Part shown: positions 52,301 through 55,300 of the stretch, one piece after another
Numbering within the stretch: position 1 is the stretch's first letter
How the letters are laid out: each line of letters starts with the position of its first letter
Assembly (NCBI RefSeq): GCF_052324685.1
Contig: NC_135219.1
Coordinates: 19,848,985-19,912,984, forward strand
DNA from: Brachyhypopomus gauderio
Taxonomy: Eukaryota > Chordata > Actinopteri > Gymnotiformes > Hypopomidae
Length of the DNA stretch: 64,000 bases
Direction: 5' to 3'
Made by a program: the position numbers and the translations under genes
Notes under the pieces: generated by a model
The model's input: only the letters and a program-made list of their open reading frames with translations
What the model was told of the DNA's origin: nothing
Databases searched by the model: none

Positions 52301-55300
52301 GTGACAGTGTCTGGGAAAACCTGCCAGACCTGGGCATCTCAATACCCTCAAAAACACTCTAGAACACCAGAGAACTACCCCTGCAAGTAAGCAACGATGT
52401 GTGGTCCGCAGTATGTGTAGATGATCAAACCATTTGCAGTGAAATATTTGTTTTCTGTTGCATTTGATGCAGTGATGCAGATCATAAAAAAAAATAATAA
52501 TTCCAGTGCATGGTCAGCATGTACATCGAGAGATTAATTTGTCTGTTCCAGAGGTCTTGACAAGAACTACTGCAGAAACCCTGACAAAGAGAGAACCCCC
52601 TGGTGTTACACGTCAGACCCAGAGACCCGCTGGGAGTACTGCACCGTGCCGAGCTGTGATGGCGAGCCCCGCCCTGGTCAGCTTTCTCTTATGCCCATTC
52701 ATCATTTCTCTCTTCCTAATCATTCTACCCATCATGCACTTGCTTGTCTTGTGTGACACTGTTATATTTCAGAGCTGCTACAGCGCACAAACTCTCTGCT
52801 GCCAAACAAACACTTGCAGCCTTCATTAGCGTCTAAACCAGTGTTAAATGGAGGCAGTGGATGTTAATTCAGCAATGGGACATTTGCTGTGCAGATAGAT
52901 TTCATATGGAAGACAAAGGCCATAAGCCAGATACTGTGCCTACATTTTAATTATGCAGATAAAATATGCTAAGTCATGCAAATACAATATGCAAATGTTT
53001 CAGAGGAGCCAGTTATCGCTCCAGCTGAGGACTGCTATGAAGGAGATGGGACCTCGTATCGTGGAGTCATGTCAGAGACCATCAGTGGGAAGAAATGCCA
53101 GGTCTGGTCCTCCATGGAGCCTCATATGCATCAGAAGACACCTCAGAGCTACCCCAATGCGTAAGAGCAGAAAGAGCTTCTGTATGGCATAAACCTTGCA
53201 GTATTCCTTTGCAGCCATTGACTGAAATGCAAATCGTGCAGCTGATTAGTGCACATGCATTCTTCTGACACTTAATGACAATGCCAGTGCTAGTTAAAAG
53301 TTCAAAATCAATGGATTGCATTGTAATTACCGTACTCTGACTGCCTAAAGAGCTGATGCTTTACTTTAAGGTGACTTCAAGTTTAGATTTAAATTGGGTG
53401 TGTATACATTAATCCTCTAATATGCAGAGACCTGAGGCGAAACCTATGCAGGAACCCTGATGGAGATCGTGCTCCCTGGTGCTACACCACAGATCCCTCC
53501 GTGCGCTGGGAGTACTGTAAGATCGAGCGCTGCAGCGGCCAGGTCTCCCCAGTTGCCCCAATGCCCACCCAGTCTGGGCATAAACCCCTGGCCCCCTTGC
53601 CAACTCCCTCTCGCCCCATCACCACTCCCTCTCCAGTCAAAGGTTTGCCATCATCACATGCTGCTCACTACGATATTGACCAGGAGACGTTTTGCTGCCA
53701 GCTGTCGTCTCTACGGGGCCTTGATTTATCATTCTGCTCATGTTCTGATTTGAAGATTGTAAAGTGGGTAGTGGAGCCGACTACAGAGGTCGGACGTCAA
53801 GGACTGTAACAGGTGTGACCTGTCAAGCCTGGAGTTCCATGATCCCTCACCAGCATTCTAGTTTCACTCCTGAAACCCATCCAGACAAGGGTCTGGAGTC
53901 CAATGTAGGTCCCATAGCACGGACATAAAGAATACGTCATTTATATTGAATTGTGATTGGACTCTCTGGCACTTTTCTAATGTCAATTCTAATGGCTAGA
54001 ACTGCAGAAATCCTGACAGTGATGTGAATGGACCTTGGTGTTACACTACAGATCCTAACAAGAAGTGGGATTACTGTCAGATTCCAGACTGTGGTACGAA
54101 CCTTCACTGTTGCCTAAATCACAATGATGTTGTAATGATGTCGTCAAGTCTGCATCACTGCGATGGCTGGTTTTTAAATGTAAGAGACTTTCCTCGTAAA
54201 CAGATGGCATGAAGTGCGGACAGCCCGTGACAAAACCAAGACGCTGCTTTGGCCGGATTGTTGGAGGATGTATCTCTAAACCTTACTCTTGGCCTTGGCA
54301 AATCAGTTTTAGAACCAGGTACTAAAGCACACCTGTGCTTCTAAACATGTGATTATTCATTCAGTTTTAGAACCAGGTATTAAAGCACACCTGTGCTTCT
54401 AAACATGTGATTATTCATTCAGTTTTAGAACCAGGTACTAAAGCACACCTGTGCTTCTAAACATGTGATTATTCATTCAGTTTTAGAACCAGGTATTAAA
54501 GCACACCTGTGCTTCTAAACATGTGATTATTCATTCAGTTTTAGAACCAGGTATTAAAGCACACCTGTGCTTCTAAACATGTGATTATTCATTCAGTTTT
54601 AGAACCAGGTATTAAAGCACACCTGTGCTTCTAAACATGTGATTATTCATTCCACCCATGTCTGCACAGTAACAACATCTTAGTGCCTTATGTTGTGTCG
54701 TAGCACTGGCATTCATTTCTGTGGAGGAACTTTAATCGCTGAACAGTGGGTCCTGACAGCTGCACACTGCCTTGAGAGGTAAGAGACCAGTTAGGGCAAA
54801 ACGTTTATTACCGGGACTTCAACTTGCACCGAACCTCTTGTTCTCAGCATTACAAAAGCTCTTGACATTTTTCTCCAGATCTAAGAGACCATCTGCATAC
54901 AAGGTGTATCTGGGCATCCACACTGAGCTTGCAAAAGAATCATCCAAACAGGTCCGTGACTTGGAGAAGATTATATTGGAACCAACAGGAAAGGATATCG
55001 CACTTCTCAAGCTGGACAGGTATTAGTTTCCTCTGTTAGCTCTTGGGGAAACAGTATAATTATAATCTTAATTCAAAATGGCCTTTTTTGAATACTTGAA
55101 TAAAACCTGAAAGATTGCAGCAACTACATTTTGTGTAGTCAGCTACTTCTGCAAAGGTTGTTATAATGTTATATGAAATGCAGCAAGCAAATGCATCACT
55201 GAGACTTCTCCCCTTTCAGGCCAGTTGTTTTTAATGATAAGGTGTTGCCTGCGTGCCTACCGGAGAAAGACTACATTGTGCCCAGCGGGACAGAATGCTA

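Follow-up and report, generated by a model that had tools for sequence, protein, structure and literature searches.

A minisatellite across a splice donor of the plasminogen gene plgA in Brachyhypopomus gauderio and its candidate in-frame micro-exons

It is known that repeat expansion can leave arrays of short tandem units across splice sites as a by-product, and the study of such minisatellites at human exon–intron boundaries is reportedly that of De Grassi and Ciccarelli, from 2009. As described in PMC2812944, the human boundary minisatellites, on average 30 bp × 4, create alternative splicing as well as new introns. Intron gain by tandem duplication is treated in a review (PMC3443670) and in an account of the potato RdRp gene (PMC4974935), and the ATP2A1 case of Hellsten 2011 is related through these sources; in such cases a duplication that crosses a boundary or bears AGGT supplies ready-made splice signals. 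In the potato gene the duplicated segment, present in two copies, runs over an intron's 3′ boundary, and the donor that it recruits is a cryptic one within an exon (PMC4974935). The 24-bp AGGT tandem duplications of fission yeast (Zhu and Niu 2013) are described in the same paper. An intronic VNTR affects the splicing of ABCA7 (PMC5954066).

The array that we describe here, in the plasminogen gene plgA of Brachyhypopomus gauderio, belongs with these boundary-minisatellite and tandem-duplication cases, its use in splicing being predicted. As in the human set of PMC2812944, short tandem units at a boundary multiply splice signals; the human cases, however, are largely transcript-supported and yield new introns, whereas plgA offers a predicted in-frame micro-exon inside an old intron. 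plgA is the mirror image of potato RdRp as that gene is described: the 5′ boundary is crossed, an exonic CAG is the would-be acceptor, and there are six copies. With the fission-yeast duplications it shares multiple tandem copies of a short AGGT unit and an intron that runs across copies, but the yeast repeat is described as wholly exonic. The ABCA7 VNTR is likewise an intronic array acting on the splicing of its own gene, an action that in plgA is predicted; the ABCA7 array is said to lie beside an exon, the splice site itself not being multiplied. The literature searched yielded no report of a splice-site array in plasminogen.

The window, the whole 64,000-nucleotide stretch analysed, corresponds to positions 19848985-19912984 of contig 9 in an assembly of 796.5 Mb and 840 contigs. 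plgA occupies positions 49322..56292 of its plus strand. We built the exon model from sequence alone, reading off 20 exons and setting their splice phases, and obtained one 817-aa frame with no internal stop; the least certain junction is the acceptor of exon 13 (score −8.2). Pfam matches on the spliced model comprise PAN_1, Kringle in five stretches and Trypsin, and the best PDB matches for two pieces of it are plasminogen. As modelled, plgA is a plasminogen gene, with a PAN domain, five kringles and a trypsin domain in a single frame. Introns 1–10 of the model measure 165, 313, 71, 660, 144, 93, 104, 541, 165 and 327 nt, and introns 11–19 measure 267, 122, 95, 110, 385, 100, 200, 349 and 306 nt. 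Exon 15 (54204..54318, 115 nt) ends in ...WPWQISFRT plus two bases of the next codon and is followed by the donor CAG/GTACTA (the slash marks the junction); exon 16 (54704..54778) encodes STGIHFCGG...AAHCLE. The initial annotation had ended exon 15 at 54318, begun exon 16 at 54704 and placed the array close to where the protease domain begins; all of this agrees with the model, which with these two boundaries is the single open frame of 817 aa.

The array extends across the junction of exon 15 with intron 15. It consists of six units, each exactly 58 bp long, that lie head to tail on the plus strand at 54303..54650, every unit holding 16 bp of the end of exon 15 (TCAGTTTTAGAACCAG, its last 16 bases) and 42 bp of intron 15; Tandem Repeats Finder and an ungapped repeat finder report ~54303-54652, 6.0 copies and 98% matches. 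A tandem array with coordinates accurate to within a few bases had been proposed for this place from the outset, but with a 60-bp period that both repeat finders replace by 58 bp. Unit length and identity are those of a minisatellite (units of ~10-100 bp, high identity), and the 16 bp of exon and 42 bp of intron per unit make the array a boundary repeat, one that overlaps an exon–intron boundary. The only base that varies among the units is donor position +4, which reads C T C T T T in order, such that every unit carries the donor CAG/GTA(C/T)TA. The six donors claimed in the initial annotation are all present, with GT at 54319, 54377, 54435, 54493, 54551 and 54609. Five of them lie inside intron 15, each with a candidate 12-nt micro-exon behind a CAG that is exonic in origin and, in the five downstream copies, acceptor-like through the T-rich stretch before it. 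Downstream of the array, the unrepeated tail of intron 15 (54651..54703) can be aligned, near its 3′ end, to intron 15 of the paralogue plgB.

Searches for the repeat returned to this one place. The 25-mer ATTCATTCAGTTTTAGAACCAGGTA occurs five times in the window, always exactly although up to three mismatches were allowed, against a mean of 0.00 in 100 shuffles. A 77-nt probe gave six overlapping matches in the 796.5-Mb assembly, all in the plgA array, and found no second array locus there; these counts over the assembly are lower bounds, as very common words are skipped by the search.

A micro-exon in each unit had originally been proposed, but in the first copy these bases belong to exon 15 itself, which leaves five candidates rather than six. 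They lie on the plus strand at 54365..54376 (unit 2, donor GTATTA), 54423..54434 (unit 3, donor GTACTA), 54481..54492 (unit 4, GTATTA), 54539..54550 (unit 5, GTATTA) and 54597..54608 (unit 6, GTATTA, 95 nt from exon 16), and all five are in frame, free of stops and flanked by AG and GT. Since exon 15 ends after two codon bases, a 12-nt insert at this point reads S-F-R-T, as had been predicted along with its length, its phase and its freedom from stops: among the 32 paths enumerated with the 12-nt acceptor, none holds a stop, and between 0 and 20 residues are inserted. Each unit has three AGs, which leave 12, 6 or 0 nt before the next donor, all multiples of three; when all three are admitted the paths number 1024, every one in frame and without a stop.

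Geometry narrows this set considerably. The donor of one unit and the acceptor of the next are only 46 nt apart, a distance shorter than all 19 modelled native introns of plgA (71-660 nt), while the distances to farther units (104-278 nt) and to exon 16 (95-385 nt) are longer. The likely minimal vertebrate intron is given as 76 bp, with a teleost peak at the same size (PMC9438311); this minimum is not a sharp one, given that intron 3 of the plgA model measures 71 nt. A 46-nt intron is unlikely rather than impossible, because PMC4463651 counts 22 human introns as short as 37-65 nt that are conserved, and for 15 of these there is splicing evidence. With introns of at least 65 nt, the 12-nt acceptor leaves eight paths (one without insert, four with +4 and three with +8 residues), and the three AGs together leave 40, with 0, 2, 4, 6 or 8 added residues and no stop. 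Additions of +4 or +8 residues are credible, as are +2 and +6 with the second AG of the unit; because of the 46-nt spacing, a range of 0-8 added residues is plausible and 20 is not.

The local splice signals in the array are plausible, not distinctive. Our site scores derive from consensus tables for vertebrates in general and are approximate, and the native sites used for comparison are those of the plgA model. On this scale both the 12-nt and the 6-nt micro-acceptor reach 0.7, which is higher than 7 of the 19 native acceptors and above the exon 16 acceptor (−1.4); of the 3934 AGs on the plus strand of the window, 10.7% do at least as well as the 12-nt micro-acceptor. The zero-nt acceptor is poorer (−2.0), and a test for recursive splice sites finds AG/GT in each unit. 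The donors of the array score −0.4 or −0.0, with one or three of the 19 native donors lower; the first donor, at −0.4, outscores just one of them. Units 2 and 4-6 have the donor GTATTA, which the plgA model also places at intron 17. A branch motif yTnAy lies within 50 nt of the acceptor in 13 of the 19 native introns. Before the micro-acceptor the motif occurs solely ~6 nt from the AG; we found no consensus branch site at the usual distance, and the nearby TTCTAAAC does not match yTnAy. This says little, because the motif is present in just 13 of the 19 native introns.

Counting back from F587, the F before CGG, the insertion point corresponds to T581/R582 of human plasminogen. In human microplasmin, as described in PMC7374754, F587 is treated with the residues of Loop 3, the 37-loop, and the substitution F587A raises activity and lowers inhibition by alpha-2-antiplasmin. 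The 37-loop of the plasminogen activators contacts the inhibitor PAI-1 (PMC7782431). The Trypsin profile score of plgA is 221.0 bits with the SFRT insert and 226.7 bits without it; on this score an insert in the 37-loop appears bearable, and it could alter inhibitor binding.

A second plasminogen gene, plgB, lies downstream of plgA on the same strand. Stretches that match plasminogen kringle exons were found at 60406..61296 (plus strand) of the window, and the gene continues beyond the window in L007, where its matches span 800-4230. Exon 15 of plgB ends at L007:2272 with a single copy of CAGTTTAAGAACCAG followed by GTACT, which differs from the array unit at one of the 16 exonic repeat bases, and its intron 15, of 454 nt, has the same place and phase as that of plgA. 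The predicted plgB product, WQVSLRT joined to SSDIHFCGG, equals in length both the no-insert product of plgA and human plasminogen, and exons 15-17 of plgB are open when joined; the micro-exon is absent from both comparators, the tandem paralogue and human plasmin. Only one of the two paralogues, plgA, carries the array, which would have been gained after the duplication or lost from the other paralogue. The plgB sequence of L007 gave no clear match to the 42 intronic bases of the unit, and the start of the intron before the array existed is therefore visible only through the array itself. The C at donor +4 in units 1 and 3 is likely to be the older base, because plgB has C there. Intron 15 of plgB carries a G-rich repeat of its own (L007:2340-2461).

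Further features occur upstream of plgA in the window. Pfam matches fall on UNC-93 (2153-2485, plus strand), a tubulin-tyrosine-ligase (11301-12860, plus strand) and, below the cut-off, Tcp10_C (17897-18337, minus strand), an order that presumably resembles human chromosome 6q near PLG. An open Tc1/mariner-type transposase frame of 341 codons at 14872-15897 matches the Tc3_2 helix-turn-helix, the Sleeping Beauty helix-turn-helix and DDE_3. By eye, the open frame 44154-45125 looks almost the same as 37768-38778, which Pfam assigns to the rhodopsin-type receptors; the pair suggests a recent local duplication. A minus-strand frame of 506 codons (4943-6463) contains a 63-bp repeat × 4.3 encoding EEEEAYPxSEDSASTVDYGGG and has no Pfam match. 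At 6886-9088 a repeat of ~190 bp forms two blocks, and the consensus of the second (from 8191 on) looks by eye like the reverse complement of the first (6886-8179), which suggests a large inverted arrangement.

How surprising is an array at such a site? We sampled 220 kb of contig 9 as 22 stretches, two of which border the window. In this sample, arrays with units of 30-200 bp, at least 3 copies and at least 90% matches number eight and cover 1.25% of bases, and those with units of 40-100 bp and at least 4 copies number three and cover 0.53%; the window is richer by the same two measures (4.1% and 1.0%). By our own arithmetic, selection aside, ~0.2-0.5 of the 38 splice sites of plgA would be expected inside such an array. 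An array on one of them is unsurprising, because such arrays cover ~1% of the sampled DNA and the gene has 38 splice sites. Selection for frame is unsupported as well: when we simulated 3357 duplications spanning a boundary at the 19 plgA donors, 53.0% gave an in-frame, stop-free micro-exon, as did 187 of 187 at exon 15. Frame preservation argues for neither function nor selection, because an in-frame outcome is common in these simulations. An acceptor score of 0.66 was also reached by 9.5% of them (320; exons 12 and 18 account for 256 of these). An acceptor context this good is uncommon at exon 15, where 8 of 187 simulations reached at least 0.66.

The reading that we favour, and that we consider probable, is that a minisatellite at the splice donor has enlarged intron 15 from ~95 to 385 nt, that transcripts are mostly spliced from 54318 to 54704, and that minor in-frame isoforms with up to eight more residues in the 37-loop are possible. 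The anatomy suggests a tandem duplication of 58 bp that took in the last bases of exon 15 and the first of intron 15, followed by expansion to six copies in minisatellite fashion; every new copy would have a donor because the repeat carries 16 exonic bases. The exonic CAG, now behind intron sequence, resembles an acceptor and may act as one. Exon 15 is most likely still defined as one 115-nt exon that uses the first donor, in which case most transcripts would join it directly to exon 16 and the array would merely enlarge the intron; without the five extra units, intron 15 would measure 95 nt, as much as now separates exon 16 from the last donor. A minority of transcripts may take one or two micro-exons, adding SFRT or SFRTSFRT to the 37-loop with the 12-nt form; consecutive micro-exons are unlikely because of the 46-nt spacing. 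Two observations count against this reading: the first donor is weak and might for that reason lose to five near-equal competitors, and the last donor, at a distance from exon 16 that is near the short-intron size of plgA, could be favoured by intron definition.

In one rival, which we regard as unlikely, the main isoform contains one SFRT block: the last donor would be joined to exon 16 across 95 nt and the first donor to the acceptor of unit 6 across 278 nt, making the 37-loop four residues longer. Both distances lie within the modelled intron range of plgA, the shorter equals the intron size before the array, the micro-acceptor outscores that of exon 16, and the Trypsin profile tolerates the insert. 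However, neither the human protein nor the predicted plgB product has the insert, and an exon of 12 nt is hard to define.

Competition among the donors could instead harm plgA, an outcome that we hold to be somewhat less probable still. If exon 15 runs on to one of donors 2-6, the reading is SFRTRY and then a stop in five of five cases; isoforms bearing repeats, which the initial annotation had thought possible, hold up in geometry to +8 residues when a micro-acceptor is used, but donors 2-6 used without one would give an early stop rather than an isoform. Transcript decay would then lower the output of plgA, for which plgB, a tandem paralogue that does exist, would compensate, and the weakness of the first donor fits this course. 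Against it, the plgA model is open throughout, as expected of a gene in use, although the array may be too recent for this to be informative, and the openness of plgB is known for the joined exons 15-17 only. We give little credence to a length-variable bank of splice sites, in which unit number and splice choice would together set the residues added to the 37-loop of plasmin A. It is very improbable that the six units are an assembly error, or that their number varies so much between individuals that six is meaningless: units 98% alike would invite either, but long reads easily span a 350-bp array, the contig measures 26.8 Mb, and the pattern C T C T T T is no simple collapse or copy. Least credible of all is that the repeat is kept for DNA or RNA structure, with splicing incidental, for although each unit has palindrome arms of 7 bp (AAGCACA/TGTGCTT), can form an RNA hairpin, can pair intronic UCUAAA with UUUAGA of the micro-exon, and folds with z = −2.16 (8 of 200 shuffles as good; z = −4.03 and 0 of 100 for the whole array), folding scores rise from tandem repetition alone and no Rfam match reached the gathering threshold in 49000-57000.

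What the array would mean for plasmin depends on splicing. If the micro-exons are spliced in, the repeat would tune a clotting enzyme; and if the splice-site bank, doubtful as we consider it, were true, the tandem paralogues would encode one plasmin with a fixed loop and one with a variable loop; the 37-loop influences the inhibition of human microplasmin by alpha-2-antiplasmin. If the micro-exons are not spliced in, the locus shows how well six near-identical donors are tolerated in a short intron, a matter relevant to exon versus intron definition. plgA appears to show, at an early and perhaps still variable stage, how candidate micro-exons can arise when a segment across a donor is tandemly duplicated, with plgB alongside as an array-free control.
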